A stretch of 64,000 nucleotides of DNA from Lachnospiraceae bacterium (GTDB lineage: Bacteria; Bacillota; Clostridia; Lachnospirales; Lachnospiraceae). Under the pieces are notes generated by a model, which worked only from the letters and a program-made list of their open reading frames with translations, had not been told where the DNA came from and made no database searches. Within the stretch, counting starts at the first letter, position 1. Every line of letters begins with the position of its first letter. Of the stretch, positions 1 to 23,559 are shown piece by piece. The translations under genes were made by a program, and so were the position numbers. The stretch covers positions 1 to 64,000 of the forward strand of contig CAJTCL010000021.1 in the NCBI GenBank assembly GCA_910575005.1, given 5' to 3'.

Positions 1-135
1 ATCCTTTTCACTCACGTCGGCCTGCCTGACAACAGGCTTTATTGTCATGCTCTTTTTTCTATAAAATTTCTTTTGAATTTTTTCAATTATCTACTTGACT
101 TTTAATAGTTGGTCTTTCCAGAAGAGCCAGGGCGT

Positions 136-399
136 TCATCCATAGCTCTCCCCTGTTTTGTCTGCTGTTTCAAAGCTGTCCAAACCAATGATCAGGGCAA
201 GGCTGCCGCCCGACTCCCAGAAGGCGTGGATGTTCCCGGCGTCGTCGATGTATTCCACCACGCAGGTTTCACCTTTTTTCTTTGGGCTGAACGGGTCGTC
301 CAAATCCCCGGTAAGGCGCAGCCTTGTCCCTTTGGGGCATCTTGCGCGCCATTCCTCCAGCATATGCGCTTTTTCCTCCAAAGTCAGCACCCCTCCCAT
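136..399 (-). CDS. DUF4314-like small protein
   Basis: A protein of about 87 residues. The middle, KGTRLRLTGDLDDPFSP followed by VVEYIDDAGNIHAFWESG and ending near IIGLDSFE, matches the pattern of DUF4314: a basic PxGTRV-like entry, a DAGxIHxxWxxG core and a final VDS. Such proteins are common in conjugative elements and phages and have no established function. It is the last gene of a minus-strand run (two paralogous unknowns, DUF262, DUF3846, this gene). The start is uncertain: ATG at 399 overlaps the end of the DUF3846 gene, while TTG near 378 or ATG at 363 are alternatives after GGAGG-like sequences. The family call rests on pattern memory, not on a search. Confidence 0.6.
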   Translation of the reverse strand: MGGVLTLEEKAHMLEEWRARCPKGTRLRLTGDLDDPFSPKKKGETCVVEYIDDAGNIHAFWESGGSLALIIGLDSFETADKTGESYG

Positions 400-776
400 T
401 TGGCAAGCATGCCCCCGCCGCATATGGGCTTTAGGATGCCCTCAACCAAAGGGACGTCCTCTTCACGGATGCTGGCAAACATATCCCCTTCATGCCTGAC
501 GCACAGGATGTTCCCGCAGAAAATATCAGCCATCCTGCCTTTATAAATCCATGCGCGGTTTGGCGGGAAATTCAGGATCTTGCCCCCGTCATTGCATATC
601 ACGTCGATTTCATCCGTCAGGCTGACACATTGGATAAGCCCGCCCTCTTTGCCAAAATTGACATAATCCTGTTTCGCTTTCAGGGTATCCTCAATTTCCC
701 CAAGATACCCCGCATAGATGGTTTCCCCATCCTCTGACACGCGCAGGAAATACGCCGTTATCTTATCCTTCCCCAT
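384..776 (-). CDS. DUF3846-like protein
   Basis: A protein of 130 residues starting at an ATG six bases after AGGAGG. The segment IQCVSLTDEIDVICND, then GGKILNFPPNRAW, then DIFCGNILCV fits DUF3846, where a D-ICNEEGKL-LPPNRA core is followed by a D-I-G-xxxIV strand. DUF3846 proteins occur in integrative elements and phages of Firmicutes; their biochemical role is unknown. The start overlaps the 3' end of the DUF262 gene by 14 bases, so the two are translationally coupled. A GATACCCC octamer lies inside the gene (704-711). Confidence 0.6.
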   Translation of the reverse strand: MGKDKITAYFLRVSEDGETIYAGYLGEIEDTLKAKQDYVNFGKEGGLIQCVSLTDEIDVICNDGGKILNFPPNRAWIYKGRMADIFCGNILCVRHEGDMFASIREEDVPLVEGILKPICGGGMLAKWEGC

Positions 777-2220
777 CCATTTCCTCCTGAATTTCTGGAT
801 ACCCCGCAGAATCCTCATCCGAAGATGGCATACCTTCCAGTTTTTCTACGGTTTCCGTGCTTTCTGTATCTGATCCATCTTCCAAAGGCTTATCATCCGA
901 AGATGGCATGCCTTCTCCAAAAGACCCCATGCCTTCCGGTTCCTCTACAGTTTCCATGCTTTCTGCATCTGATTCCTCTTCCAAAGGCTTATCATCCGAA
1001 GATGGCATGCCTTCTTCCAAAGTCTCCATACCTTCTGGTTCATCTTCCAAAGTTTCCATACCTTCCACAGGCTCAAAACCTGAAACTGTCTCATTCTTTT
1101 CTTCCAAAACCTCTATATCCCCTGATTTTTCCTCTGTTTCCATACGTTCTTCCTTCACAGCAGGGCTGAACCGCTCCACCAGCTCCCTGTCACTGCTGCC
1201 AAACTTGTCGGGGAAACACGATATGAGGTACGCCAGGAGCTCCGCTATCCTTATCTTCACGTTCACCATCTTCACATTGCCGGAGCCTGACGCTTCCTTA
1301 TAGGCTTCCGTTTCGTCCACGGTGAAAAATCCTGTCACCGCCGAAACGTAGTCCTGCTCCGTAATACCCCGCTCCTTTGCCAACGCCGCAACGTACCCTA
1401 CGATTGGGATGTTCGTCTTGCGCAGGAACTTCTTCTCGGAGCCGCCGAACGCCCCGTCCAGATACCCCACAACGCCTTCCATCATCTCACGCTTCTCAAC
1501 GGAATAGTCGCCGCGGATGACTTCCGCAAACCTCACGCACTCTGCCGCGGATGCATTCGTCTTAACCTGGAAGTCCCCATAATACAGGTCTTCCAGGAGC
1601 ATCGCTATGGTCAGAAGCATCAGGAAATCGTCCTCCCGCCTGAGCTGTGCAAGCGTCAGGTTGACGGACTGCTGGAAAAAAGGGCTGCCGCCAAGCGTGT
1701 TGAAAAACCCCGCAAGCTCCATGCCAAGCACGGGTCTCGCAGACTGGATCTTGGACAATGCAACCCCGCTATTAATCCGTGCGAATGTCTCCTCAATTTC
1801 CCCGTCCGTGCAGTCCTCAAGCTGGTAGATTGTGAAGCGGTAGGCGAGGATTGCCTGCCTGACATCCTCCTCAAGCTCCGAGAACTTTTTGAGTGCAAGA
1901 TCATAGTGTACGCCATCCAAAACTGCATCCGGCGTTTTCGCATGCGTTGTCCACTCGTCATTGATGAATGACATGCATGTGGCCAGCCTCTGCTTGCCGT
2001 CCAGCACGGTCAGGAAGTTCTTCCCTTCCTTCTGCTCTTTCCTGAAATACATGTGGGGGATGATGTAGTCTGACAGCATGGAGTGTATCAGCATGGACTG
2101 CTTTAAGTTGTTCCACTGCCCGGAGCGTCTCTGGATGGGGCTCTCCAAACTCAGGATCCCATCCTTCTCATAATACTTGATTAATGTCTTAAGCCCTACT
2201 GGCAGGCTGCTTTTCTGCAT
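763..2220 (-). CDS. DUF262 (GmrSD N-terminal-like) protein with acidic repeat tail
   Basis: A protein of 485 residues. Residues 1-200 look like a DUF262 domain: IQRRSGQW near residue 29 corresponds to the YQRxxxW entry motif, and TVLDGKQRLATC (residues 71-82) to the DGQQR nucleotide-handling motif of GmrS/DndB/ParB-like folds. There is no C-terminal HNH/DUF1524 nuclease domain as in GmrSD type IV restriction proteins. Residues 350-485 are instead acidic and repetitive, built from EGMPSSDDKPLE and ESxETVEE-like units. The ATG at 2220 follows GGAGGG. It lies 12 bases after the gene at 2233-2748 and overlaps the DUF3846 gene. A defence or regulatory role is possible by family association, but the missing nuclease argues against simple restriction activity. 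Confidence 0.7.
   Translation of the reverse strand: MQKSSLPVGLKTLIKYYEKDGILSLESPIQRRSGQWNNLKQSMLIHSMLSDYIIPHMYFRKEQKEGKNFLTVLDGKQRLATCMSFINDEWTTHAKTPDAVLDGVHYDLALKKFSELEEDVRQAILAYRFTIYQLEDCTDGEIEETFARINSGVALSKIQSARPVLGMELAGFFNTLGGSPFFQQSVNLTLAQLRREDDFLMLLTIAMLLEDLYYGDFQVKTNASAAECVRFAEVIRGDYSVEKREMMEGVVGYLDGAFGGSEKKFLRKTNIPIVGYVAALAKERGITEQDYVSAVTGFFTVDETEAYKEASGSGNVKMVNVKIRIAELLAYLISCFPDKFGSSDRELVERFSPAVKEERMETEEKSGDIEVLEEKNETVSGFEPVEGMETLEDEPEGMETLEEGMPSSDDKPLEEESDAESMETVEEPEGMGSFGEGMPSSDDKPLEDGSDTESTETVEKLEGMPSSDEDSAGYPEIQEEMDGEG
816..1070. repeat. degenerate tandem repeat encoding the acidic DUF262 tail
   Basis: TCATCCGAAGATGGCAT recurs at about 816, 893 and 993, embedded in longer similar blocks with TTCCAAAGGCTTATC and TTTCCATGCTTTC segments. 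The units are in frame with the minus-strand DUF262 gene and encode EGMPSSDDKPLE plus spacer residues. Unit lengths differ (about 77 and 100 bases), which suggests slippage or unequal recombination. Confidence 0.75.
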
Positions 2221-2232
2221 CTTGCACCCTCC

Positions 2233-2748
2233 TTAAAACATGGAGCCGCCGCATCTGCACCCACAGCCATTAAATCCGCCATTAAAAAACGGAGCCTGCG
2301 GCGTGCCAAACGGGTCGCCTCCAAACGGGGATGTCTGGAACAGGCTTGCGCCCGGTTGGTTTGCGCCGAACGTCTCTCTGATACCCCCACCCCCGGTGAC
2401 ATCCACACTCTGATACCCCATAAAAGGCACAGTCTGTACATAGGGCACGCCATCCTCAATCTCCGCCAGCCCAGAAACATCCTCCGCACCCAAATCAAGG
2501 CAGTCCAGATAATCCTTCTCCGCAACCCCGGACAGGATGTCCCTGACCTTCCCGCTGTTGATGTTCCCGATGAAACATCCTCCATCCTCCAAATCAAACT
2601 CAACCTTAACCGCGTTTGCGTTTCTGATGTCCTTCACGGACTCGTAAACGCGTCTGCTCACCCCTTCCAGCTCTATTATATCTTCCTTTACCGCGCATGC
2701 ATCGCATATAAAATCCAGTAACCCATTTTTCAATAATATACGGCTCAT
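2233..2748 (-). CDS. unrecognised protein, paralogue of the upstream gene
   Basis: A protein of 171 residues that I do not recognise. It starts at ATG 2748 after GGAGGTCAGGCT. Residues 1-110 align with the neighbouring 115-residue protein over LLxxGxLDxIC, RRVxxxxKDI, ANxVxxDF, FIGNIxS, YLDCxxLG and EIxxGVPYxQ, about one third identity, so the pair arose by duplication. The C-terminal 60 residues are extra: glycine-, proline- and phenylalanine-rich, ending GGFNGCGCRCGGSMF with four cysteines. No signal peptide or membrane segment is visible. It precedes the DUF262 gene by 12 bases and is probably cotranscribed with it. Two GATACCCC octamers fall inside it, at 2380 and 2412, in different codon phases. 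Confidence 0.7.
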   Translation of the reverse strand: MSRILLKNGLLDFICDACAVKEDIIELEGVSRRVYESVKDIRNANAVKVEFDLEDGGCFIGNINSGKVRDILSGVAEKDYLDCLDLGAEDVSGLAEIEDGVPYVQTVPFMGYQSVDVTGGGGIRETFGANQPGASLFQTSPFGGDPFGTPQAPFFNGGFNGCGCRCGGSMF

Positions 2749-2837
2749 AGCCTGACCTCCTTTATTCCTGATTTTCCTGTTCCGGGGGCTTGACCGCCCC
2801 GCTGTCCCTGCATAAAAAATACCCCAGACTCTGCGCT

Positions 2838-3185
2838 TCAGATACAGAAACTGTCCTCCCATCCAGTGTTCGCCTTCTGGATATATGGGACGCCCTCCTT
2901 AATTTCAGATACCCCGGACACGACCTTAAGACCGAGGGATGTGCAGTCCAGATACCCTTCCTTCAGGAACTGCGCCATAATCCCGCGCGCCCTGCTACTG
3001 TCAATGTTACCAATAAAGTAACTCTCATCCCCGAAGTCCAGCATAACCCCGTTGGCTGAACCGATGTCCTTTGTCCCTGCCCATACGCGCTTGCGGCTTT
3101 CCTCCATATCCACAAACTTCTCGCACACTGTCTTCATGCCGCAAATTTCATCCAGTTTCCCGTCCGGCAACAATACTTCACACAT
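2838..3185 (-). CDS. unrecognised protein, first gene of the DUF262 operon
   Basis: A protein of 115 residues starting at ATG 3185 after AAAGGAGGTCATATT. It belongs to the same unknown family as the next gene (shared YLDC, VSGxxEI and GVPYxQ blocks) but lacks the cysteine-rich tail. It is predicted to be cytosolic, with an alternating strand/helix pattern and no transmembrane segment. As the first of five consecutive minus-strand genes with short spacing, it probably heads the operon. A GATACCCC octamer lies within it at 2908 and another lies upstream at 3401. No function can be assigned. Confidence 0.7.
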   Translation of the reverse strand: MCEVLLPDGKLDEICGMKTVCEKFVDMEESRKRVWAGTKDIGSANGVMLDFGDESYFIGNIDSSRARGIMAQFLKEGYLDCTSLGLKVVSGVSEIKEGVPYIQKANTGWEDSFCI

Positions 3186-3691
3186 AATATGACCTCCTTT
3201 TATACTTTCCTTTTTCCTGGCAAGATTTCTTTTTTTCCTTTGCCTGTTGTGTGTTATAACTCTGCCGGAGGGGTAATTCAAGTTGTTTTTTCAGGATTGT
3301 GCAATGCGCCCAAAGACAGAATATGTATTTTGTCCATTCCAACTGGGGAAAGGCTCCCGCTTTTGCCAAAGCCCCTATAATAGTTCCGCAGGGGGAGGGG
3401 GATACCCCAAGGCAGGAAAGAAAAATACAAAAAATATCAGGCGTCCTAAATTGCCTGATACTTGCGCTCTCTTATATAGTTGGGTTTTCCAGCTCTTTCA
3501 TTCCTAAGGCTCTCTTGAATACCATCCTTCTAAAACTTCTGGATAAGGCACTGATGACAGTTACACTTGGCTGAAAAAACATTAACTCGTAGTTTTTATG
3601 GGACAACATACGACAGGATGAGGGGATACCCTGTTATTGGGGGATGTACGCCGGAACTGGCGGGGGAAAGATCCCCCAGATATCAAATCCA

Positions 3692-3979
3692 TTAATTCTT
3701 GGAAATCGGTGTAATGGAAAGGGTGTAACCAAGTGGGGCAAGAACCTTAAATAAAGTATCTATCTGTGGCGTTGATTTCATTGTTTCAAGCCTTGCTATT
3801 GCTGGCTGCTTCACACCACTCAATTTTGCAAGCTCACGCTGCGACAAACCTTTCTCCTCCCGCGCCTCAATCAATTTCCCAATTAACTCAACTTGGAAAT
3901 TGATTTGTTCCCGCTCAGCGTCACTTACCCTGTCCTTATCTGCCATATATTCTGCAAAAGTATTGACTTCTTTTTTCAT
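3692..3979 (-). CDS. HigA-like antitoxin (XRE helix-turn-helix)
   Basis: A protein of 95 residues with an XRE-type helix-turn-helix at about residues 38-65 (EEKGLSQRELAKLSGVKQ followed by PAIARLE). This is the DNA-binding and antitoxin module of HigB-HigA or RelE-Xre pairs. Its ATG overlaps the stop of the upstream toxin gene (ATGA, bases 3976-3979), so the order is toxin then antitoxin, as in higBA. It should neutralise the toxin by direct binding and repress the shared promoter through the palindrome at 4365-4384. It lies amid the repeat-rich island, where such a pair would favour retention of the DNA. Confidence 0.85.
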   Translation of the reverse strand: MKKEVNTFAEYMADKDRVSDAEREQINFQVELIGKLIEAREEKGLSQRELAKLSGVKQPAIARLETMKSTPQIDTLFKVLAPLGYTLSITPISKN

Positions 3980-4341
3980 CTTCCACCAAACCTTTCTTTA
4001 TAATCCTCCATATTCTTCCTTGCCTGCTCCAGTTCCTTCCTGGGGGTTTTCTGCGACTTCTTAATATAATGGTGAACCATCACAAATTTATTATTTTTCC
4101 AATAAAAGAAAAACACCCTGTTCCTCAATGGTCTCAATTCCCACAAATCCCCATCAATATGTTTCACAATCGGCTGTCCAATCCTTGTTCCATACTCTGC
4201 TAATGCTGACATATATGTAAGAATCTTCTCCCTGTTTACCCTTGCATTTTTATCAGCTTTCGACTTTTTCTGTAACTCATCCAAATATTCAACTATCTTT
4301 GAATGCCCAGCCTTATCCCTATAAAATATAATTTCAAACAT
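3976..4341 (-). CDS. RelE/HigB-like toxin (Gp49 family)
   Basis: A protein of 121 residues. The order FEIIFYRDKAGHSKIVEYLDE, then DLWELRPLRNRVFFFYW, then VMVHHYIKKSQKTPRKEL is characteristic of the phage-derived Gp49/HigB branch of the RelE superfamily, ribosome-dependent mRNA interferases. The conserved ELR and KKxxKTP elements are present, so it looks intact. It is translationally coupled to the HigA-like antitoxin downstream. A well-formed promoter with an internal operator lies 18-46 bases upstream of the start. Confidence 0.85.
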   Translation of the reverse strand: MFEIIFYRDKAGHSKIVEYLDELQKKSKADKNARVNREKILTYMSALAEYGTRIGQPIVKHIDGDLWELRPLRNRVFFFYWKNNKFVMVHHYIKKSQKTPRKELEQARKNMEDYKERFGGR

Positions 4342-4358
4342 TCTGTACCCTTCCTTTT

Positions 4359-4387
4359 ATTATATGATAACATATCAGTTATCACAA
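4359..4387 (-). promoter_or_regulatory. toxin-antitoxin promoter with internal palindromic operator
   Basis: On the minus strand TTGTGA (4387-4382) and TATAAT (4364-4359) are separated by exactly 17 bases. The spacer is almost filled by the perfect inverted repeat TGATAAC-6-GTTATCA (4365-4384), a likely HigA binding site overlapping RNA polymerase contacts, consistent with autorepression. The assignment is by consensus match and position only. Confidence 0.65.
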
Positions 4388-4389
4388 TT

Positions 4390-6430
4390 CAATACCTTTT
4401 ATAAAAGCCCGCCGGAACTGGCGGGATATGGTACCCCAGATGATCAATGGATAATACAAACTGGTGGGCGGGGGAAGTTTTTCAACTTTCAAATGGTTGC
4501 CTGCGGGGGCTAAATCGATACCCCAGATGGTTTTCTTTCCTTCAAAATATTATTTTACCTGAAAATTTCTATCTTTACACTTAAAATCGCCTGTCTGGGC
4601 AAGGTACATTTCCCTACCATGCCACAGCTCTCTTTACTTCCCAAATATGGCGGGGAAAAGTTTTACAATCTTCTGACGGCTATCTGCCAGAGATAGATTA
4701 AAGATATATGTTTAAACTCGCCAAATTGGGTGGGGCTATCCGATACCCCACTTGGAACCTTTATATTTGATGTTCCATACTCATTTGGGTTCTATCTAAT
4801 GATACCTAAATCTTGCCGGGTTGGGCTGGGCAAAGCGATACCCCAGATATATTTTCTACTCTTGATGCTTTTAAATCAATAAGATTCCTCTCCCCTTATT
4901 GATACCTAATCTCGCCTGTTTGGGCTGGGCAAAGCGATACCCCAGATACATTTCTACTCTTGATACTTTTAAATTTCCAATAAGTCAACTTTGATACCTA
5001 ATCTCGCCTGTTGCGGCGGGGCAACTTGATACCCCAGATGTATTCCAACAAATAAACTCTGATGCCATAGCCCTCTTTGCACAGGACAATCCCCTATCTC
5101 CACAGAAAATACTTTTTTGCCCAGATATGGCAGGGGAAAGTTTTATAATGTTCTAACGGTCGCCTATAGGGGCGCATCTTGATACCCCACTTAATGCCTA
5201 TAGGGAAACTTTCACTGATTAATGCACCAATTAAATGCCTATAGGGGAACTTTCTCCACGGATACCCCAGATGAATGTTTACAAAACCATTTATCCTTTT
5301 GATACACCACTTGGACTGTTTATAGAGGAATATCCCTTTTTCGATACACCACTTGGATATTTACAAAAGAATATCTTTACTTTCATATCACTCTTGGATG
5401 TTTTACAAAAAACTTCTCGATAAATACTTTTTATGCCCTTCTTTCAGAAATGCTGTATCTCGCCAGATTGGGCGGGAAATGTGATACCCCATTTGGATTC
5501 TAGCAGCTGAATCATTCCATTTATATGATACTCTTCCATAGAAGCTCTCAACCAGATACCCCAGAGAGCCTTTAACTGAAAATTCCCTACAATGAATACC
5601 TATCTGCTCTTATGCCCAGATATGGCGGGGAAAAGTTTTATAATGTTCTAAGGGTGTCTGTGTGGGCGCACCTTGGATACCCCAGAGGGATATCTTTTCT
5701 TTCATGCCACTCTTGAATACTCCTAATTACCACAGAGAAACATTGACAAGAGAACTCTCTACTTTTTTACCTATCCGCCTTGCTTGGGGCGGGACACCTT
5801 GATACCCCCAGATAAATATCTTTACTTCGATATCACACTTGGATGCTACAAAGGGACTCTCTTGATACCCCAGACAGACTTCTTATGGGGAGATATCTTT
5901 ACTTCGATACTCATTCAGTATTCCAGAAGAATATCTTTATTTCAACATTCCCTCTCGATGCCCCAGATGGTTATCTTTACTTCGATACCACAGTTAGATT
6001 TTTTTCAAAATACTCTCTCTTTGTGATGGTAAAGATATTTGTTCTGGCTCTCTTAGCAGAGCTTCTCCTTATGGTGAGAAAAATAGCTGTTCTTCTTAAG
6101 TTGAATCATTCTCCCTATACTGGCAAAGATATCTGCTTCTTCCAAATTAACTCTCTTATTGTGGCTTTCTAAGATGGCTCATTCTCCTTATGATGAGAAA
6201 GATATATGCTCTGACTCTCTTAGCAGAACTTCCTAAGATGACTCGTTCACTGTGGCTTCTAAGATAACCCTCTTTCTATGGCTTTCTTAACTTACTGTTC
6301 TCTGCTTACTTTGCCATAACTGGTATTAACTTTTATCTTGTTTCATTCTACATATTGGTTCTCTTTATTTACTTCTTATTTCACCGTAACTGATATTAGC
6401 TTTTATCTCGTCCCGTTGTCTTCCTCATGA
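4390..6430. repeat. gene-free repeat region I with GATACCCC hairpin units
   Basis: About 2 kb without a credible gene. Twelve exact GATACCCC octamers lie at 4517, 4742, 4837, 4936, 5028, 5181, 5261, 5483, 5555, 5676, 5801 and 5864. Many extend to GATACCCCAGAT or GATACCCCACTTGG. Upstream of most is a CGCC-N5/8-GGCGGG or GGGC element 7-12 bases away, so CGCC/GGCG or GGGG/CCCC stems could form, for example at 4911-4943, 5003-5035, 5461-5490 and 5774-5808. ATATGGCGGGGAAAAGTTTTA-like blocks recur near 4646, 5126 and 5622. From 6000 to 6400 other repeats appear: CTCTTAGCAGA, GCTTTCTAAGAT and ACTGxTATTAxCTTTTATC. No promoter or terminator order shows which strand, if any, is transcribed. Confidence 0.75.
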
Positions 6431-6550
6431 ATACATGAGATGCCTGACGCTTCTCCTCCCTGTTCCCCCACTTTGGACGCAGTCTTTCAATGATACCCCA
6501 CAGACAGCAAAAGAGCCGCCATGCATCTGGCAGCCCCTTATACCATTTCC

Positions 6551-7249
6551 CTATGCTGTGCCCGTTGGCTCCGCTACATACCAAAACGGTGGGTCGCTGT
6601 TCCGCGCCACGTCCTTCAGACACCGCATATACTCGTTCACTTCTTCCGCGAAACCCTTTAACTGGCAGTTCTCCAAGTCCTTCAGCGTCAGCTGGCGTTC
6701 TATGTACATGATGCATTTGGCTGCAGTGTCAAAGTCATGCGCCAGTTTTTCGATTATCTCACCGTCCCCTCCGTCTAACGCCCCCAAGTCCCTGTCTATG
6801 CCGCTTTTGCATTCTGCAAGCAGCTTGGAGCATTCTGCAACCATCCTGTCCTGCATGCTGTACCTGTACAGCTTCACTCTCAGACGCTCCATGCGCCTGA
6901 ACAGCCAGTTCCAGTCCCTTGATACCCCTTCTGCTTCTGCTTTCCCGCGCATCCCCTCAAGCTCCCTGTTCGTCTCCACGACTGTCTCAAGCACACCCGT
7001 GCCACGGAACAGCAGGAGCATGAACTCCCTTGCATACCCAATCAGCCGCTTCTCCCATTCCTCCGGCTCATAGTTATACCCCGCCAGACCCCTGCATTTC
7101 TTTACAAGGCTGTTGCTCTTCAGCTCCCCAAGGATTCTCTCCAGGCTGCGCCTTGCAAGCTTCATGCAGCCTGCTGGCTTCATCCCATTGTCCAGCTGTG
7201 TCTGGATAATCCACAGGTTCCTATCCATGTCTTTAAAATATTCTTCCAA
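6551..7249 (-). CDS. unrecognised helical protein
   Basis: A protein of about 232 residues, almost entirely helix-forming and rich in charged residues (RRMERLRVKLYRYSMQ, KDLENCQLKGFAEEVNEYM). It has no signal peptide or membrane segment and no motif I know. The likely start is TTG at 7249, with ATG 7228 as an alternative. It lies 15 bases downstream of the gene at 7265-7600, which suggests one transcript. Codon use is GC-richer than the surrounding repeat DNA, which supports coding. It contains GATACCCC at 6921. Confidence 0.6.
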   Translation of the reverse strand: MEEYFKDMDRNLWIIQTQLDNGMKPAGCMKLARRSLERILGELKSNSLVKKCRGLAGYNYEPEEWEKRLIGYAREFMLLLFRGTGVLETVVETNRELEGMRGKAEAEGVSRDWNWLFRRMERLRVKLYRYSMQDRMVAECSKLLAECKSGIDRDLGALDGGDGEIIEKLAHDFDTAAKCIMYIERQLTLKDLENCQLKGFAEEVNEYMRCLKDVARNSDPPFWYVAEPTGTA

Positions 7250-7264
7250 ATTGGCCGCCCCCTG

Positions 7265-7600
7265 TCATGCCTTCTTCCCATTATAATTGTAATATGACCT
7301 GAAAAACCTTGCGTGGTCATTAGGGGTCACCAGTTTTTCCGCTCCTCTCACTTTCCCACCGACAATTAACGCTTTTACGCCTGCGTCACTGCCCGCAAAG
7401 GTCGGTACCATGCAGGCGTCCACGCCAAGCCCCTCAAAAAAACCAAGCACCAAGTCCGCTTCCTGCTTTGAGGGGCATTCGCGCAGGATGCCGTAAAGCT
7501 CCGCGCGCCCTGAACCCCGGTTCCTCCTGACCACCTCTGCAACCACAAAACTTCCCGCCGCTTTTTCAAACAATTCCCCATAAGAAAGACCTTCCATCAT
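7265..7600 (-). CDS. unrecognised small protein
   Basis: A protein of about 111 residues with a mixed alpha/beta pattern: SYGELFEKAAGSFVVAEVV, then a helix with PSKQEADLVLGFFEGLGVDA, then strands around KALIVGG, ending FFRSYYNYNGKK. No family is recognised. Starts at ATG 7600 or 7597, or GTG 7606, are all possible; the ribosome binding site is weak (GGGCGG). It is the first gene of a two-gene minus-strand unit with 6551-7249, between the two repeat regions. Confidence 0.55.
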   Translation of the reverse strand: MMEGLSYGELFEKAAGSFVVAEVVRRNRGSGRAELYGILRECPSKQEADLVLGFFEGLGVDACMVPTFAGSDAGVKALIVGGKVRGAEKLVTPNDHARFFRSYYNYNGKKA

Positions 7601-7689
7601 GAACACCGCCCATCCAATAAATTTTTGTATAGTGGTGTAGTATAACTCCTGCCTTTCTAAAATGCAAGCCCTTCTTAAAAGAAATCTGC

Positions 7690-8880
7690 GGCTCTTAAAA
7701 ATTATAAATATCCAATACCAACGATACTCAACTGCTTTTATCTATCTCTTTATTTGGGATTGATATCGGGGGCTTGGGCGATGCCCTTTGATACCCCTCA
7801 TGGATGTTAAACGCTACTTGTCTTTCTTTATCAAAATCTATACTTGGGGACTGCATTTCTTTCTTGGGGATTTCTATGAGGGGCTTTGATATACCCTCTC
7901 TCTATTAGGGATTAGTATCAGGGATTTCAATGAAGCCTTTGCATACCCCTTGGATGATTGAACTTGTTATCAGGGGCTTTGATGATACCCCTTGAGAGAA
8001 TGATAACTATATCTCTTTATTGGGGGATTTCTATCGTGGCTTTGGCAATGCCCTTACACACCCCTTATACCTTACCGATATACCTCTTCCCCTAAAATTG
8101 TCTTTGGCTAGGCGGATTTGCTTTTTCCTGATAACTACAAAAACCCTGAAAAATGTCAGGCGGTTATCTGTGCTTGTGGGGGCGTTCCCTTTGGTAGTTT
8201 AAAATCCTATGTCGCCTAATGGATGGGCTATGTCGCTAGTGGGGGCGTGGATTTCAGGGATAAATCACTTGCGTGATGTGAAAATGCGTGATTGTCTTTT
8301 ATGTTGGAATATTTTTATTATGTTGGGTGAGGGGGATATATTCAATGATAAGATGGCGTGAATCGCCTGTTATTGTCTGCGGATGCTGCTGTCGGCGGAT
8401 TGCCTTTCCCTTCCTGCTAACTGGCTTTTTTAAGTCGGCGGGGGTGCGCTTTTGGCACGTTTCTGATACCCCTTTGGATGTATTTGCTTCCCAAATTACA
8501 CATTGATTCTTGGAGGAAAATATTGATACCTTTTGGATGTCTTTACTTCTTTAGAAAGACAATTGATACCCCTTGATTTCTGATAAATGCTATGATGATG
8601 TCTCTATTTCTTATATCTTGATACTTAGCCGGGGCTTTCTGATACCCCTTTGGATGTCTTTACCGCTCAAATTAATATTGATGCCTTTCTTTCATTTAGT
8701 AGGGGCAATCTCCATACCCCTTTGGATGTCTTTACCTCTTTGGAAAGGCAATTGATACCCCTTTTGGTATCTTTACTTGCTGAATTACACATTGACTCTT
8801 GGAGGGAAATCCTCATACCCCTTTGATTTTCTTTACCTCTTATATCTTGATACTTAATGGGGCGACTTGTTATCCCTTTT
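7690..8880. repeat. gene-free repeat region II with GATACCCC(T)TTTGGATGTCTTTAC units
   Basis: Exact GATACCCC octamers lie at 7790, 7984, 8465, 8565, 8641 and 8754, with CATACCCC variants near 7944, 8714 and 8816. Here the octamer is usually followed by TTTGGATGTCTTTAC and preceded by GGGGCTTT or GGGGCAAT, giving GGGG-loop-CCCC hairpins (for example 8631-8648 and 8702-8720). Short AT-rich plus-strand reading frames exist but have no ribosome binding site or consistent codon use. The unit differs from that of region I, so the two regions share a core signal rather than a whole repeat. Confidence 0.7.
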
Positions 8881-8959
8881 GAAACTTATATCCTCCCTAT
8901 CTCCGCTATATTTGAATGAGCCTATGGCTTGTTATGCTCCAATTTCCAAAGCTGGGGCT

Positions 8960-9180
8960 ATGGCTGCGAATGAAATTGCGTCTTGCTATTGATTGCTAAA
9001 CTGTATCATTCTATGCGAATAAATTTGTGTCTTGATAACTCTCTATTGATTTCTAAGTTGTCTCCTTATATGCGAATGAATTTGCATCTCAGTAACTCCT
9101 TACGTTAACTGTTGCTTTCTAAGATTACAGAACCGGCTCCTTATATGCGAATGAATTTGCATCTCAATAACTCTCTGTAT
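8960..9180. repeat. GCGAATGAATTTGC direct repeats
   Basis: Four copies of a unit around TATGCGAATGAATTTGCATC occur at about 8968, 9015, 9068 and 9138, the last two within a longer CTCCTTATATGCGAATG context. The core is itself palindromic in part (GCGAAT/ATTTGC). The stretch 9180-9520 that follows shows no gene and no clear repeat. This family is distinct from the GATACCCC units. Confidence 0.6.
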
Positions 9181-9523
9181 CAGCATACACTTCCTAAACT
9201 CTCAAAGGCAATAAACTTACAGATACCCTAAGACTCAGTTTCCCCTTTCTCATTCCCTTCATCTCAAATCATGGTAATCCATATTAACTTCTGTCTGATT
9301 CCAGTTCATTTCTCATTTCCTGAAATTATATATGGTTCTTCTTTCTCTCCATGCCATTTTCCCCTTATGGCTGCCGTTTACCCTTAGTGCTTTGGCGGCA
9401 AAACTCACAGATGCCCCGGCATATCCCTGTTTTATGTCAATGGAATACACACTCTAATGCTTGAGCATTCAAGCTGCACAGGAAAAGAGCCTGCCTGAAC
9501 AGGCAGACCCCATACCCCGACAT

Positions 9524-9727
9524 TCACGTCCCCTTCTGCTGGCTTTCTCCTCCATTTTGGTTTCCTGCGTACTCAATCTCATCCGCTATGTCAGAAATCT
9601 CCGAAGCAAGGAAACTGAACGCCGCCTGCTGTTCGCTTACCTTGTCATTGCAGGATGACGCTGCCTCAAGCAAGCCTGACAGCCCGCGCAGCTTCTCCAC
9701 AGCCAAGCCAACCCTTACAGTTCCCAT
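9524..9727 (-). CDS. small hypothetical protein
   Basis: A protein of 67 residues starting at ATG 9727, seven bases after GGAGG, which decides the start over ATG 9733. The sequence MGTVRVGLAVEKLRGLSGLL followed by an acidic helix and a polar QNGGESQQKGT tail suggests a small cytosolic protein. No family is recognised. It stands alone on the minus strand between the repeat blocks. A CATACCCC variant of the octamer lies just beyond its 3' end at about 9504. Confidence 0.5.
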   Translation of the reverse strand: MGTVRVGLAVEKLRGLSGLLEAASSCNDKVSEQQAAFSFLASEISDIADEIEYAGNQNGGESQQKGT

Positions 9728-9848
9728 AAACATCCCTCCACTCTTTTACCCAAAACAGTTTCTTCTTGGATGTGCTATTTTAACTCTGCCGCAAAAGATT
9801 TGCAACCCCTAAAAATTACCCCAAAATACACATAAATAGCATCAAATT

Positions 9849-10112
9849 ATTCCCACTTTTCTTTCAATTTTTCTTCTCCAAATTCCCGCCTTTTTCTTTC
9901 AATTTCAGATTATGCAATCCCGCCTTTTTTATCGTTTTTCCTTCTCTCATTCCCGCCTTTCCTTCAATTTTTCTTCTCTGAATTCCCGCCTTTTTCATTA
10001 TTTTTTACCTTTCAATCCCGCTTCTCTTTCAATTTTCTGGCTCTGAATTCCCACCTTTTCCATAAAATTCAGCATTAATATTCCCGCCTTCTTCGAAAAA
10101 TCCTTCTGCTTT
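9849..10112. repeat. array of eight 32-34 bp direct repeats (iteron-like)
   Basis: The core ATTCCCGCCTTTTTC begins at 9849, 9882, 9916, 9949, 9982, 10015, 10047 and 10080, spacings of 33, 34, 33, 33, 33, 32 and 33 bases. The second half of each unit is a looser CTTTCAATTTTTCTTCTCTGA. The near-constant period, about three helical turns, and the conserved GC core in pyrimidine-rich DNA resemble iteron or protein-binding arrays. The units are too similar throughout for a CRISPR. It lies about 260 bases upstream of the methyltransferase-like gene. Confidence 0.75.
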
Positions 10113-10369
10113 TTTACAAACATTTACTGCGTTGTTGACATGGCCACGCCATTAATATCTGTTTTTGCAGACCTGATATAAAAATTTCAGCATTAATATT
10201 TTTTTCCAGACCCATGATCTCCCCCTATTTTTCGTGTCTTTGGTGAAAGTGCGCCTTACCTGCAAATATAGATTTTCTATAATAGATTTTTCTATATGAG
10301 GCAGACATCTGTTGGAGTGAATCGCCACTTTCCCCATGAGATCTCAAAAAATGAAAGGGGAATAAAGTA

Positions 10370-11632
10370 ATGCGAAAAAAAGATGTAACTCTGAGAATTA
10401 ACTCAAAACTGTGGGATGAGGTTCAGAAAAAAATTGAAAAAGATTTTGGCAGAAAATACTCCCAAACGGATTGTGCATTAATAATCTCGCTCTTGGCACT
10501 TTATAAAAAAAACAACAAAATGCATTCAATTAAAAACTTATACGATATTCCATTCTATTCGGAAAATATTCCTGATAATTGTGACTACTTAGAACCCGAA
10601 AATCAAATCAAAAAAAACATCTGTTTATACGATGGCCTAATTGATAAACTGAAAAAAATGTACTGCGCCTGCAATTATTCCGATGCCTTTACTTTTGCGC
10701 TCGCAGACTTTCTATGCATTCCTGTAGAGTTTTATACAGATTTTATAACCTCCCTTTACAGTATCATTGGTTCAAAGAACAAGAAAATGCAGGAAGCCAC
10801 TGCAAATGCTGTTGAAAACATGCAACTCAAAACCGAGAACATGGTTTTAATAGATGGCTGCTGTGCAACAGGCTCACTCTTTTTCGGTTTAAAAACTAGA
10901 AATTGGAAAGGAGTAATCCTTAACGACATGAACCCGCTGCGTACAAATTTTTTAAATGTTATAAAATTGGAACCTCTTAAACTCATCAAAAAATTGTTGC
11001 AGGCTGACCTGAGCTTTATCAAGGAACCTGAGTTCAAAAACAAGAATTTGAGTGGCTTTAAAGCAGCAACGGATGCGTATCAGATAAAACGGTGCCACTA
11101 CACCAAAGTTGATTGTAACATTGAGATAGCTTACCAGATGTTCCTGAGACAGTGCATTGACAAAGCAATGATTGAGGACTCCACCAAAATTTTTGATAGG
11201 ATTTTACGATTTCTGCCCGCACATTTGAAATTGCAACATGCATCCATAACGCCGAATGACTGTCTTGAATACTTAAAAAATGATTTTGAAAAGCTAGTGC
11301 TTCTTGACGTGCCGTATGTCGGTTCTGAGAAGGAATGCGCCATTCAAGGATATCAGTACGATCCCTTCCACAAAAAGGTTTCTGGTCTTCTTAAGCAGGC
11401 AGACTTCCCATTCATTTATTATTGCCGGAGTTCCGCGCCCAAATCAGATAAATCTGAATCCACCGATAAAAAGGAGCGAATTCTAAAAAGGAAATTGGGG
11501 ATACATTTTTACAACAAGGGTTTTTATTTTGAAAAAATTCATCTGGAAAAGGACACAGAGCTCATGATTAGCAATAGACATTACAACAATTCCCAATTTC
11601 AATGGATTAATTACCGTCAAGATTTACGCTAA
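10370..11632 (+). CDS. divergent D12-class-like DNA adenine methyltransferase with N-terminal DNA-binding-like segment
   Basis: A protein of 420 residues; ATG 10370 follows GAAAGGGGAATAAAGTA. Residues 1-50 (RKKDVTLRINSKLWDEVQKK then SQTDCALIISLLALYKK) resemble a ribbon-helix-helix-type segment. Residues 159-172, LIDGCCATGSLFFG, sit where Dam-like enzymes have the FxGxG S-adenosylmethionine loop. NDMNPLRTNFLNVIK (185-199) parallels the NDINxDLxNFYxxxK motif, and LLDVPYVGSE (311-320) the catalytic DPPY. The middle proline change (DVPY) and the CCATG loop are unusual, so activity is uncertain. It is AT-rich and isolated. It could instead be a non-catalytic regulator built on the fold. Confidence 0.55.
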   Translation: MRKKDVTLRINSKLWDEVQKKIEKDFGRKYSQTDCALIISLLALYKKNNKMHSIKNLYDIPFYSENIPDNCDYLEPENQIKKNICLYDGLIDKLKKMYCACNYSDAFTFALADFLCIPVEFYTDFITSLYSIIGSKNKKMQEATANAVENMQLKTENMVLIDGCCATGSLFFGLKTRNWKGVILNDMNPLRTNFLNVIKLEPLKLIKKLLQADLSFIKEPEFKNKNLSGFKAATDAYQIKRCHYTKVDCNIEIAYQMFLRQCIDKAMIEDSTKIFDRILRFLPAHLKLQHASITPNDCLEYLKNDFEKLVLLDVPYVGSEKECAIQGYQYDPFHKKVSGLLKQADFPFIYYCRSSAPKSDKSESTDKKERILKRKLGIHFYNKGFYFEKIHLEKDTELMISNRHYNNSQFQWINYRQDLR

Positions 11633-11667
11633 AAGAAACTACAGCCAAAATTCGATACATAATTTTA

Positions 11668-11701
11668 AAAGTCTGGGCGTTTTCAATAACACCCAGACTT
11701 T
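11668..11701. terminator. bidirectional hairpin between convergent genes
   Basis: AAAGTCTGGG (11668-11677) pairs perfectly with CCCAGACTTT (11692-11701) across a 14-base loop. It lies between the plus-strand methyltransferase-like gene and the end of the minus-strand rlmD fragment. On the minus strand it is followed by TTTTAAAA, as expected for the original rlmD terminator. Confidence 0.7.
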
Positions 11702-11702
11702 A

Positions 11703-12014
11703 CTATAACATTTGAAAATGATATAATGCTTCTTCAATATACTTCTCTTTCTCCGCTGGACAATTAGGGACTCTTGCTTCCGGCGTTTTAGCCTTATTAT
11801 AGCTTTCCCCAACCTCTAAGCCATTCTTTCTCTTTATCTGTGAAATATAAAGCGAAGATACTTTTACATCGTATTTGTCCAAAATATAATTTTGGATTTC
11901 TTGATAAGTTGCCTTCCGTTCTGCCGGGGTAATATCATTCTCATCAAGTTCTAAAGAAACTTCCACATAATCGTCGACCTTCTTTTGGGACAAAAGGACG
12001 CATGTCTCGACATG
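11703..12014 (-). pseudogene. rlmD: displaced 3' end of rlmD
   Basis: Read on the minus strand from the att core, this encodes HVETCVLLSQKKVDDYVEV, then KATYQEIQNYILDKYDVKV and SSLYISQIKRKNG, ending EALYHFQML. This is collinear with the last 105 residues of the intact RlmD at 42.4-44.2 kb (HVETVCLLSK to EALEYFRMI), at roughly half identity. It has no start codon, ribosome binding site or methyltransferase domain. It is the chromosomal tail of rlmD cut off when the integrative element entered. The stop at 11703 abuts a terminator hairpin, as for a normal gene end. Confidence 0.85.
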
Positions 12015-13755
12015 TATCGGAACTACTATGTAAACACAATTTTTTATCCTCGTCACTCGTATAGGAACACAATTCTGCGTCATTATGTACAGCCGCAGCG
12101 TTTTTACGCTTTGGCTTAAAATCTTTACCATTAAAATTAGAGTGGATACCAGTTTTATACACAAAGGTTATCTTCAAAGGCTCCTCCACTCCCTCATCAT
12201 TATAACCTCCGATGATTATTTTTTCAACCACACTCTCAAAAACAACCCTGTCGAAGCTCTCCAGTATCTCCCCAGAACCTAACACTTTTCTGAACTCCCT
12301 TAACCGTGTTCTGGTGTTATCCTGATTCCTGCTCAATTCCATCAACTGCTGGTGTTCCTCTTGGAGCTTCTTCAACTGGTCGGACAGCTCTTTGTTCTTC
12401 TTCTCGTAAATGTCCCTGTCGATATTATTATCAAGCCTTAAATCAAGCAGCTTTTCCTTTCGCCTGTGCAGGTCAGCCATTTCTTTTCCAATCTTAGGCA
12501 GACGCTTCAGAGAAGTATCGTCATTAAGAATACCCTCAACTTTTTGCAGGAACTCATCGACAACCTCCTGTTGGTCTGTGCATAAAAGCTGATAGCTCTT
12601 TACAAAAGCGTTTTCAATCACTTCTTCGGGGATTCCCTTACAATGAGGGCAATGTCTTTTCCCGTGCTTGGTGGCGGTAACACACTGCCAGATTGTCTTG
12701 GTATATGCGGAACTGCTGTGCCAGTTTCTCCGTGTTAAAGTGCCGCCGCAAAATCCGCATTTTATCATGCAGCTAAAAGCATATTTCCTGCTGAACTTAT
12801 TTCTTTTCTGTCCCTCTTGATGCGTGTTGCGGTTTGTATTCCGTTTTGCCAGTATCTTCTGTGCTTCCTCAAAAATTTCCTCACTGACTATTGCTTCGTG
12901 ATGGTCACGGATATAAAACTTATCTTCTTCACCAAAGTTCTCTAACCGTCTTTTTGAAATCGGGTCAACTGTAAATGTCTTTCCTAAAAGCAGGTCGCCT
13001 TTGTATTTCTCATTTTTGATGATGCCGATTACCGTGGACTGTACCCATTTTGAACTTCCGTACTTTGTCTTGTATCCCAAGTTTTCCAGTTCGTTTCCGA
13101 TGACTGTACAGCCTGCACCCTCAATATACCGATTGAAGATATACCTTACAATTTCAGCTTCCTTTTCATTTACGGATATGCTTTTCGTATCTTTATGGTA
13201 GTCATATCCCAGACAGCCTTGAAAACCCACAAGCTCCCCTCGCTGCATTTTCATCTTCAACCCCTTTTTTACATTAGAAGAAATGTTCTCAACTTCCTGC
13301 TGTGCAACGGAGCTTAGTACCACTAACAGCAGCTCGCCGTCCATCGTTAAGGTATTAATATTTTCATCTTCAAAGAAAACGGCAATGCCTTTCTCTTTCA
13401 GCATACGGACATATTTCAGAGTGTCCAGTGTGTTTCTGGCAAATCTTGAAATGGATTTTGTAATCACCATATCAATATCCCCATTCATACAGTCGTTAAT
13501 CATTCTCTGGAAATCCTCACGCTTCGCCACCTGCGTGCCTGTTATGGCTTCGTCAGCGTATATGTCCGCCAGTGTCCATTCATGTTTCTTCTTAATCAAA
13601 TCCGTGTAATATGTGACCTGTGACTTATAGCTGTTGAGCTGGTCTTCGCTGTCCGTGCTGACACGGCAATAGGCGGCTACCCTTAATACTTCGACCTTTC
13701 TGCCACGGATACGGTTTTCACTACGGTTCGCTTTGATTACCTGCACATCGCTCAT
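11944..13755 (-). CDS. large serine recombinase (element integrase)
   Basis: A protein of 603 residues starting at ATG 13755, eight bases after GGAGG. The resolvase N-domain has VAAYCRVSTDSEDQLNSY with the catalytic serine, and the arginine helix region ITKSISRFARNTLDTL. A recombinase domain and a zinc ribbon follow (CGFCGGTL ... CPHC), then a coiled coil (EMADLHRRKEKLLDLRLD), as in other large serine recombinases. It catalyses site-specific integration and excision through 2-base staggered cuts. Its last 23 residues are encoded beyond the att core in displaced rlmD sequence, so its C-terminus differs between the integrated and excised forms. It follows mazF and a 52-residue gene closely. Confidence 0.9.
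   Translation of the reverse strand: MSDVQVIKANRSENRIRGRKVEVLRVAAYCRVSTDSEDQLNSYKSQVTYYTDLIKKKHEWTLADIYADEAITGTQVAKREDFQRMINDCMNGDIDMVITKSISRFARNTLDTLKYVRMLKEKGIAVFFEDENINTLTMDGELLLVVLSSVAQQEVENISSNVKKGLKMKMQRGELVGFQGCLGYDYHKDTKSISVNEKEAEIVRYIFNRYIEGAGCTVIGNELENLGYKTKYGSSKWVQSTVIGIIKNEKYKGDLLLGKTFTVDPISKRRLENFGEEDKFYIRDHHEAIVSEEIFEEAQKILAKRNTNRNTHQEGQKRNKFSRKYAFSCMIKCGFCGGTLTRRNWHSSSAYTKTIWQCVTATKHGKRHCPHCKGIPEEVIENAFVKSYQLLCTDQQEVVDEFLQKVEGILNDDTSLKRLPKIGKEMADLHRRKEKLLDLRLDNNIDRDIYEKKNKELSDQLKKLQEEHQQLMELSRNQDNTRTRLREFRKVLGSGEILESFDRVVFESVVEKIIIGGYNDEGVEEPLKITFVYKTGIHSNFNGKDFKPKRKNAAAVHNDAELCSYTSDEDKKLCLHSSSDTCRDMRPFVPKEGRRLCGSFFRT
12004..12014. other. left attachment site of the rlmD-targeted element
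   Basis: GTCTCGACATG here corresponds to GTCTCAACATG at 42737-42747 inside rlmD, and the similarity to rlmD ends at this point. On the minus strand it reads CATGTCGAGAC, codons His-Val-Glu-Thr of rlmD. Large serine recombinases need only a short shared core, so this length is expected. Confidence 0.7.
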
Positions 13756-13788
13756 ATGATTTACCTCCAAAATATTTATTGATGAATG

Positions 13789-13947
13789 TCAAGCCGCAAG
13801 GTTCGTAACGACATTGTAATCACTCATAAGCCGCTTCTTTATGGCTTCGTATTCATCTACCGTAATTAAACTTCTTTTTTTCAGCTTCTGCAAACATGCG
13901 AATTGGATGCTGTAATGTACAAAATCCTGCTCCTTACTCTGTTCCAT
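13789..13947 (-). CDS. small SHOCT-like protein
   Basis: A protein of 52 residues beginning [20 protein letters not shown] and containing [20 protein letters not shown], the short C-terminal 'leucine-x-GxIxxxEYExxKxxLL' type motif of SHOCT domains. Its ATG lies within the last codons of mazF (14-base overlap), and it ends 33 bases before the recombinase start, so all three are probably cotranscribed. Proteins of this kind often sit between a MazF-like gene and a recombinase in Clostridia elements. The function is unknown; an antitoxin or recombination accessory role is only a guess. Confidence 0.65.
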
Positions 13948-14317
13948 TGCTGCACCCCGCTTTCTGTTGTTTCATGGATAAACTAATGGCAAGAGCCTTA
14001 TCAACCCTCGCCATAATTTCAACGGGCATCATGCCCATATGCTGTTTCAGTCTTTTCTTATCTACCGTTCGGATTTGCTCAAGCAGTACAATGGAATCTT
14101 TATCAAGCCCCTCAAAATCCTTTACTGCGGTATGTGTCGGCAATTTCGCTTTTGTCTGCACCCTGCTTGTAATGGCAGCAATAATTACTGTCGGGCTGTG
14201 CCTGTTTCCTATATCATTGGAAATGATAAGTACGGGACGTGTGCCGCCCTGCTCCGAGCCGACAACGGGATTAAGCTCTGCGTAGTAGATGTCGCCACGC
14301 TTAATTTTTCTTTCCAT
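13934..14317 (-). CDS. MazF/PemK-family endoribonuclease toxin
   Basis: A protein of 127 residues. [19 protein letters not shown] followed by [10 protein letters not shown] and the later [10 protein letters not shown] are hallmarks of the MazF/PemK SH3-like fold that cleaves single-stranded mRNA. The ATG at 14317 follows AGGAGG. No classical MazE precedes it. The downstream 52-residue protein is the only nearby partner, so the toxin may be orphaned or may use an unrecognised antitoxin. It lies immediately upstream of the integrase gene in the same orientation, consistent with an element maintenance function. Confidence 0.85.
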
Positions 14318-14344
14318 AATATCTATTTACCTCCTGTCTGGATT

Positions 14345-14813
14345 TAGGCAGATATATCCTGCCTATGTAGCAGCCAGACACAAGGAAGCATTTAAGGTCG
14401 GGAGAGCGTAAAACAAGCCCTGTTTCCATAGACCGCCTTGCATCTGGCTTTATGATAGAAAGCATTTTCTATTTGTCCTCGACACCCCGAAAATGCCAAT
14501 GCGTTTTAACGCAGGGAAGTCGCCAAACGGTCAGCAGCGAACTGACGCCACGGGAGTTCCACCCCAACTGTCGGTCTGACAGAGCCGCCCAATGCCGTAA
14601 AGCGTTCAAGACGGGAGTACCATTGTTCTCTTTGCGGGTCATGGCGGAATCGGGAGCTGCCCGATATTTCCAGTCGGTATTTACCGCTCGTTGCCTTTCG
14701 GCAGGTCATGGCGTACCGCTGTACACGCTTATGCTCTCACAATCGCAAAGAGGAAGTGTTTGACGAATGAGTATTCAGTTGTCAAAGAGCTGTCCCGTTT
14801 TCACCACATAAAG
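14345..14813. other. non-coding stretch upstream of mazF
   Basis: Nearly 500 bases with no supported gene on either strand. It is GC-richer than its surroundings and has several short inverted repeats (for example around 14533-14575), but no unambiguous motif. It may hold the mazF-recombinase promoter or structured RNA. I see nothing that decides this. Confidence 0.4.
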
Positions 14814-14814
14814 A

Positions 14815-14850
14815 AAACTGGGTAAGAGTTTTTGTCCTCTCACCCAGTAG
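14815..14850 (-). terminator. terminator of the sigma-like gene
   Basis: On the minus strand ACTGGGTGAGAG and CTCTTACCCAGT form a 12-bp stem with one mismatch, followed by TTTTCTTT. It lies 27 bases after the stop of the gene at 14877-15305. Confidence 0.7.
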
Positions 14851-14876
14851 TCCTTGGGGAAGCCTGATTTTCCCCT

Positions 14877-16083: not shown

Positions 16084-16275
16084 AATATTTGAAAAAAGAG
16101 GGGAAAAAGTAACGCTTTCTCCCTTTTTAAAAAGTCATTAGGTAAAAGCATGATGTAAAGGAGCTAAAACAAATTACTACCTAAAATTAATATATAGCAG
16201 AATGCAACCTTTTCCTAAAAAATCGGTGTATATAGGTGAAAGCAGCTTTCGATAGAACTTGAGAAAGGAGAAGCC

Positions 16276-21468: not shown

Positions 21469-21477
21469 GGTAGCAGT

Positions 21478-23545: not shown

Positions 23546-23559
23546 CAAACGGATACGGC

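Follow-up and report, generated by a model that had tools for sequence, protein, structure and literature searches.

Short strand-polar words that guide a process along DNA are known for chromosomes, as with the FtsK-orienting polar sequences (KOPS); some plasmids and phages also have such words, there in small clusters. The TraB recognition sequences (TRS) in clt of Streptomyces plasmids are short polar repeats that form one small cluster on a mobile element and load the directional DNA motor TraB. KOPS (GGGNAGGG) is described as a short (8 bp), G-rich and strand-polar word giving direction along DNA (PMC2680272), and the architecture-imparting sequences (AIMS) as strand-polar words that also give DNA a direction (PMC5993296). 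The subject here is a window of 64,000 nucleotides, i.e., the whole stretch of DNA analysed, from contig CAJTCL010000021.1 (C21) of a Lachnospiraceae bacterium (assembly GCA_910575005.1), at the start of which the octamer GATACCCC is repeated on one strand in what appears to be a member of a family of Clostridia integrative elements with the hexamer GGGGTA (complement TACCCC) as conserved core. GGGGTA shares with KOPS/SRS (FtsK/SpoIIIE) and AIMS the form of a short strand-polar direction word and has, as KOPS do, a fixed direction along the molecule; in contrast to these chromosomal words, which run from origin to terminus, it is confined to elements and stays at background in the host. Its copies cover the element, whereas TRS form a single cluster, and no TraB-like gene was recognised among the proteins scanned. 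We favour the reading that GGGGTA is a strand-polar duplex-DNA signal of Clostridia integrative elements that would be read by an element-encoded protein to orient a process, with a rough probability of 0.42. Polar guide words are already known as a kind; the open full-text literature, which leaves most subscription papers outside the search, gave no description of such an element version of the word or of these elements. To our knowledge, a code of this sort, spanning a whole mobile element and independent of the host code and of transcription, would be without precedent.

Base 1 of contig C21 is also the first base of the window, and the array-bearing element is therefore cut on its left. 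By pattern search, GATACCCC has 27 plus-strand copies within 704-8761 and none on the minus strand in 1-9300, in agreement with a first-pass annotation made from the letters alone, which had listed all 27 positions correctly and had found no inverted copy in the array. Of the two isolated inverted copies that it placed elsewhere, one lies at 41360 as given and the other at 46475 instead of 46485; these two, both on the minus strand, are the only further copies in the window. The resulting 29 copies in 64 kb compare with 0.94 expected from 100 dinucleotide shuffles (largest count 4). For the array region, the expectation under an order-2 Markov model built from that region is 0.50, and the chance figure of 0.12 offered before was too low. 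GATACCCC is the top-ranked 8-mer of this region, where its reverse complement has no copies; GGGGTA is found 35 times in 1-9700 against 4.7 expected, with one inverted copy. The array and its non-coding stretches are as follows.

704..8761, minus strand: array of 27 copies of GGGGTATC, as read on the minus strand (GATACCCC on the plus strand)
4380..6490, minus strand: copy-rich non-coding stretch with the copies from 4517 to 5864, in degenerate units of about 100 bp
7620..9300, minus strand: second non-coding stretch with the copies from 7790 to 8754, of a different degenerate repeat family (by eye)

Seven array copies lie inside genes and, as read from the translations, cover all three codon phases, i.e., GYL, GYP, GYL and GYQ at 704, 798, 1461 and 2412, GI at 2380 and GVS at 2908 and 6921, the copy at 798 falling also within the start of an overlapping open reading frame (ORF). 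The three phases named earlier (GYL, GI and GVS) are thereby confirmed, and their joint use supports the view that protein sequence does not drive the word. Non-coding stretches of degenerate repeats with the word were also observed at G427:C14 5300-8400 and G429:C69 92900-96000, often where its density is high.

Related elements were found by means of a marker gene of the window element.

763..2220, minus strand: DUF262/GmrSD_N protein, 485 aa (PF03235, E=1.2e-13)

A search of 397 genomes of the family with this protein gave relatives in 14, the own genome included, at E<=1e-20, and an alignment of six DUF262 proteins used as query led to 16 named bacterial loci and three viral contigs. At 16 of 16 bacterial loci GGGGTA is in excess on the sense strand, with 427 sense against 24 antisense copies in total; two of the loci (L063 and L064) are near-duplicates, and the weakest two (L061 and L068) have 5/0 each. 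The lack of enrichment in homologous islands by which the first-pass annotation would have given up its proposal was thus not seen. Polarity is nearly complete in the islands of [Clostridium] fimetarium (G327, strain DSM 9179, contig NZ_FOJI01000014, 51/1), G430:C9 (134/7), G427:C14 (122/6) and G432:C99 (66/1), the last three counts including flanks. Element regions were chosen partly after viewing motif bins, and the less biased counts are those of the DUF262-cut loci and of G425 within its attachment (att) repeats. When 16 element regions were pooled (503 kb, excluding G428 as a near-duplicate and G301 as the negative locus; order-2 Markov expectation), GGGGTA was observed 708 times against 118 expected and its reverse complement 39 times against 32, while all 18 one-mismatch hexamers stood at 0.50-1.26 of expectation. 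Among hexamers counted four times or more it takes first place in 14 of 18 loci and second or third place in three, falling to rank 152 in one (G301), and its density in the compared regions ranges from 0.47 to 3.61 per kb (0.31 in G301). An artefact of composition, codon use or repeat expansion might be suspected from the GC skew of the motif strand (0.04 to 0.33) and from those copies that sit in degenerate repeats. The unenriched neighbour hexamers rule out a codon or composition effect, and the use of all codon phases in the window and in G327, together with a hexamer rank of three or better in 17 of 18 loci, in both coding and non-coding DNA, leaves an artefact with next to no probability.

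The unit is narrower than the octamer first proposed, since GGGGTA is what is conserved and the last two letters are a preference of the window element. The next letter is T in 34 of 35 window copies, it is mostly G in G429 and G433, the preceding letter is A in 53 of 53 copies of G425, AAAT precedes the word in fimetarium, and in G139 GGGGTA is surpassed by GGGTAT, a form with three G. These flank differences look as if reader and site had diverged jointly. A role for GGGGUAUC through pairing with the 790 loop in 16S rRNA, to which it is complementary, was ruled out because other elements prefer GGGGTACT or GGGGTAGT.

Beyond these loci the word fades. On the three DUF262 viral contigs GGGGTA is not a top word (8/1, 0/0 and 0/0), more distant DUF262 loci of the same search (e.g., L020-L026) have no GGGGTA array, and in the DUF262 carriers FADO, Sundance, MMB025, MT835469, CB457P2 and plasmid NZ_CP097785 (34-41 kb each) no GGGGTA-type word is among the top seven 7- and 8-mers. 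Two viral contigs with a distant DUF262 protein, L073 and L074 (IMGVR_UViG_3300027566_000006 and IMGVR_UViG_3300050336_000035), have the polar word TAACAG (33/2 and 29/5 sense/antisense), possibly an independent case of the same phenomenon. In L130, the SPbeta-like Bacillus phage FADO with its DUF262 protein, the word CCGTTGAC is frequent on both strands (8/5) and presumably is the known SPbeta repeat; unlike GGGGTA, the top words of this phage occur on both strands (TCCGTTG 11/9, CGTTGAC 10/10). A further polar word, GTAGGTGC in G327:C26 (13/0), is confined to 2.6 kb and was read by eye as repeated coding sequence.

Host DNA does not share the enrichment. The own genome holds 134 copies of GATACCCC, of which 27 are in the array, 12 on contig C32 (none inverted) and 95 elsewhere; these 95, which include the two inverted copies of the window and stem from about 4.26 Mb, compare with 96 copies of a reversed-pattern control in the whole genome. 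A similar density throughout the genome, which would have spoken against a special role of the array, is thus absent. A single element may be split between C21 and C32. In host DNA outside islands GGGGTA has about 0.1 copies per kb and strand, with a best hexamer rank of 341 in 20 flank windows. Across whole genomes, CAGGGGTACT lies inside elements in 16/16 cases in G430, 15/19 in G425, 18/20 in G427 and 8/8 in G432 (the last counting contig C49, where one copy adjoins a partial D12-like gene). For the remaining six genomes searched, which have elements favouring different flanking letters, the share is 2/7 (G426), 3/8 (G428), 0/15, 0/4, 0/3 and 0/1. The polar signal suggested by the first-pass annotation is supported by these counts, although neither as a chromosomal KOPS nor as a Chi: the host-wide enrichment that marks a chromosomal polarity sequence, a Chi site or a DNA uptake site is seen for neither GATACCCC nor GGGGTA, and host Chi or KOPS is ruled out because the hosts lack the word above background. 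For its packaging or uptake site nothing was found.

The polarity also tracks the island borders, a point that the first-pass annotation had proposed to check. In G425, 18-bp direct repeats at 331375 and 353078 bracket a tyrosine integrase and 21.7 kb, which marks an integrative element, and GGGGTA counts 52 sense and 6 antisense copies inside these repeats against 7 and 2 in the 78 kb outside. The copies of G427:C9 extend to 29171 and the next outward copy is at 33827; the gene at 29344, just past the last copy, was read by eye from its translation as a host rRNA methyltransferase. Strand bias thus stops at the island ends, and the direction is constant along the element. For G430, G327 and G427 the same repeat search gave no convincing att repeats, at most short AT-rich matches.

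In alignments of homologous DNA, GGGGTA is intact in 113 of 255 cases, compared with 16.4% for 6-mers generally, and ranks 25 of 1219 frequent 6-mers, these counts coming from locus pairs that are not independent. The G429/G433 pair keeps it in 25 of 40 cases versus 31.7% (rank 4 of 18) and the G310/G426 pair in 24 of 41 versus 33.1% (rank 7 of 42). Within the fuller reading set out below, the word would be kept by selection in element DNA.

Most genes run with the motif, so that sense RNA and DNA strand are confounded, and a sense motif acting in RNA, to which an RNA-binding protein of the element would attach, has to be weighed. Several copies of the non-coding stretch 4380-6490 of the window are held in small GGGG-N10-CCCC hairpins (by eye), as such a motif might be; around the intergenic copies of G327 no hairpins were seen by eye, and the RNA hairpin was rejected as the conserved unit. 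Ten genes are reversed to the motif, nine recognised by a homologue or domain and one by eye (G433:C2 7291-9285, 664 aa), and two or more of them hold no copies. These ten genes together hold 15 copies that keep to the strand of the element and 3 that read in the sense of the gene itself (two-sided binomial p = 0.0075), the clearest being the 681-aa gene of G427:C9 with 4 versus 1. The word follows the element strand independently of transcription, and because the copies in reversed genes remain on that strand, a DNA signal fits better than the RNA motif that the first-pass annotation had also allowed and that now appears very improbable. A mechanical count of opposite-strand ORFs (37 vs 5) was not used as a test, because several of these look like spurious antisense ORFs.

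Transcription could also be touched at the DNA level, if an element repressor bound asymmetric sites throughout the element and halted transcription in the manner of stoperators, the specificity of which reportedly varies between related cluster A phages. Such silencing would account for many asymmetric, element-specific sites that mostly are oriented with the genes and whose flanking letters vary between elements. In PMC9283540, the stoperators of cluster A mycobacteriophages are described as asymmetric element-borne sites of constant orientation that sit in promoters and short intergenic spaces and whose reversal abolishes repression. They are 13-mers, more than twenty in number and linked to transcription, whereas GGGGTA is a hexamer with up to about 130 copies, mostly in ORFs. 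In a mechanical ORF set, 97 of 132 copies in G430 and 94 of 122 in G427 lie within ORFs, with a higher density between ORFs than within (2.7 vs 1.8 per kb and 3.1 vs 2.0 per kb), a distribution as for a coding-tolerant signal and not for a promoter-linked one. Neither intergenic or promoter positions nor an orientation following transcription was thus found, the copies in reversed genes not tracking it, and silencing of this kind is quite unlikely.

In four of six elements the spacing of the copies is more regular than chance would give, the fraction of random sets that reach at least the same evenness being 0.024, 0.039, 0.0014 and 0.0002; in G432 (0.23) and G425 (0.30) it is not. A mean spacing of 371-399 bp in four elements, three of them more even than random, would suit a replication or repair signal, i.e., a primase start or a Chi-like site for an element-encoded one-strand enzyme, as would the constancy of polarity along the element. 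No primase, polymerase or AddAB-like match was obtained among the element proteins scanned (part of all), and the hosts without the word make a host Chi impossible; we regard this explanation as improbable, slightly more so than silencing.

The lead candidate for a reader is a protein resembling D12-type adenine methyltransferases, which in the window is encoded as follows.

10370..11632, plus strand: D12-type adenine-methyltransferase-like protein, 420 aa, with CCATG as motif I and DVPY in place of DPPY

The gene is transcribed against the motif and is located at the end from which the motif points. Its product has no Pfam match itself and is 49% identical (E=2e-119) to a G431 element protein, which matches Pfam MethyltransfD12 at E=3.3e-4 (score 20.9 vs a cut-off of 22); two members match at this E value. 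D12-like genes are present in 12 loci, and motif I and D[SPV]PY are both visible in ten of the proteins. At least two types can be distinguished, a 680-aa type (seven loci and G427:C9) and the window/G431 type, with the proteins of G426 and G433:C8 weakly linked to the former. The motif-rich DNA lies ahead of the gene, in the direction of the motif, at 10 of the 12 loci, a count that includes the near-duplicates G310 and G428; the exceptions are G044, with almost no sequence behind the gene, and G433:C8, with seven copies on each side. The gene is oriented with the motif in seven loci and against it in five, and the motif therefore takes its direction from the element end, whichever way the gene points. 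An integrase or recombinase often adjoins the D12-like gene. Two weaker D12-profile loci (G433:C24 and G428:C24) and three viral contigs with a partial D12-profile match are in DNA without the polar word. Sequence searches of the PDB yielded no useful match.

The main rival to the favoured reading starts from the same gene. The D12-like protein would methylate the adenine of GGGGTA or the opposite adenine in TACCCC, thereby labelling one strand in the manner of the BREX (bacteriophage exclusion) PglX and Type III Mod enzymes, and the mark would serve self-recognition, perhaps by shielding the element from a partner nuclease (the DUF262 protein, for instance). D12 enzymes form a different methyltransferase class from Mod and PglX. 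The motifs of the latter are six-letter and non-palindromic with a methylated adenine, according to PMC11341690. These are non-palindromic sites of the host genome, methylated on one strand; the Pfam scans made turned up no BREX genes, no search having been aimed at BREX. A methylation site would explain an exact and asymmetric hexamer with one adenine, and GGGGTA has this short, non-palindromic form. The position of the motif relative to the D12-like gene (clearly ahead of it in ten loci), the methyltransferase motifs and the Pfam matches also agree, all four genomes of the 397 with the 680-aa type carry GGGGTA elements, and G427:C9 has the D12 gene and the motif with no DUF262 homologue among the listed ORFs. 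Among 391 genomes drawn from the class, none had the 680-aa type at E<=1e-30, which shows little since the draw included no known positive. On the other side, methylation sites need neither accumulation nor polarity, there is no deficit of antisense sites (39 vs 32), seven of the ten proteins have DSPY as catalytic motif, one has DVPY and two have DPPY, and the two types do not find each other by profile. For phage T7 and EcoP15I (Type III), polarity explains the escape from a host enzyme, whereas here the sense sites are strongly enriched and the antisense sites at expectation. One-strand methylation as the explanation is unlikely, although less so than the others, and it may be true together with a directional guide.

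In the mechanism that we favour, a directional guide, an element-encoded sequence-specific protein would recognise GGGGTA, needing all six letters, and would use its direction to orient a process running through the element. This process could be DNA translocation, transfer or replication, starting from the D12-bearing end, and the signal would work like KOPS or TRS while being carried by, and specific to, the element. Because antisense sites are not depleted, the polarity arises by gain of sense sites, and a directional guide would explain this together with the polarity, the exactness, the coverage and the constant orientation to the element end. The fuller version, in which GGGGTA is a private directional code running end to end on one strand, kept by selection and read by a protein, probably the D12-like one, that senses its own DNA and the direction, is held tentatively, at slightly less than even odds. 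If true, mobile elements can carry their own direction code and tell their own DNA from that of the host. Site, candidate reader and a named strain (DSM 9179) together offer a ready handle, and the polar word is a simple means to find and delimit such elements, many genes of which lack a counterpart in the databases.

Several findings weigh against this mechanism. One DUF262 locus, G301, is without GGGGTA enrichment, and D12-like genes turned up at only part of the loci, several of which contig ends truncate, and form no single detectable family, as the window/G431 type is not matched by the profile of the 680-aa type. The reversed-gene comparison has only 18 sites: two of its genes, from G429, have their orthologues in two others from G433 (12 vs 3 without the G429 pair), G433:C2 7291-9285 has no homologue among the loci (13 vs 2 without it), and removing all three leaves 10 vs 2 (hand-calculated p about 0.04). 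Of the element proteins that were scanned (part of all; 25 of 27 families listed), none matched an FtsK/TraB-type motor or a relaxase in Pfam. A 961-aa P-loop protein of G427, seen by eye, has no Pfam, PHROG or PDB match and no meaningful NCBIfam match, and no transfer gene was recognised in the complete 21.7-kb element of G425, of which ten proteins were scanned and the rest viewed by eye. The largest elements add a protein of 1543-1780 aa (three loci), in one case along with a lysozyme and the P-loop protein (by eye), a set that looks like transfer machinery unrecognised by the libraries searched.

The window element carries the following further genes.

384..818, minus strand: DUF3846 protein, 144 aa (PF12957, E=4.2e-14)
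2233..2754, minus strand: uncharacterised protein beside the DUF262 gene
2838..3281, minus strand: paralogue of the preceding protein (sequence comparison)
3692-3979, minus strand: helix-turn-helix partner, just downstream of the Gp49/HigB gene (translation, ORF)
3976..4341, minus strand: Gp49/HigB-type protein (PF05973, E=5.5e-19)
6551..7249, minus strand: 232-aa protein without a relative found by sequence searches
7265..7606, minus strand: 113-aa protein
11944..13770, minus strand: large serine recombinase (PF00239, PF07508; phrog_95 integrase)

The DUF262 gene, which also was the search query, is present in 16 of 17 compared loci; its role as a universal reader is weakened by G427:C9, on which a second element of the G427 genome could act in trans. 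Of the 16 other loci, 10 have a DUF3846 homologue (E from 5e-45 to 4e-11). By single linkage, the family of 2233-2754 extends to 10 of 17 loci and that of 7265-7606 to 9 of 17; the direct matches are the paralogue and two loci for the former and two loci for the latter. Judged from sequence, 3692-4341 is a HigB/HigA toxin-antitoxin-like cargo within the element. No relatives of the protein 6551-7249 were found in the 29 genomes of the genus other than the own one, in plasmids or in viral contigs. From its position, the serine recombinase 11944-13770 is likely the integrase of the window element.

Integrases and several uncharacterised families are also shared between loci, and a Xer-like tyrosine recombinase of 194-206 aa is common to 6 of 17 loci. 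This recombinase parallels the SPbeta repressor MrpR, which is said to have a tyrosine-recombinase fold and scattered sites. Capsid, portal and large-terminase proteins were not found among the proteins scanned with PHROGs and Pfam (part of all), where the only phage-like matches were a phage-type lysozyme and one weak terminase-small-subunit-like helix-turn-helix protein (E=6.4e-4). Near the D12-like gene, a family of 247-355 aa (G425:C38 336542-337450, G427:C9 25338-26081 and relatives) has by eye an HNH-nuclease-like stretch with no Pfam HNH match.

Within 11944-29261 of the window, further mobile modules adjoin the element and include two more large serine recombinases (21812-23545 and 25978-27621), two MobA-type relaxases (19223-20575 and 27897-29261) and a ParB-type protein (20572-21468). 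Directly beyond the motif array, 9880-10090 holds a series of TCCCGCCTTT-like direct repeats (by eye). An Rfam search over 1-15000 gave no match at the array, the only hits being a sub-threshold L20 leader and a pemK RNA, the latter at 14548-14626 with 41.2 bits against a gathering score of 34.8.

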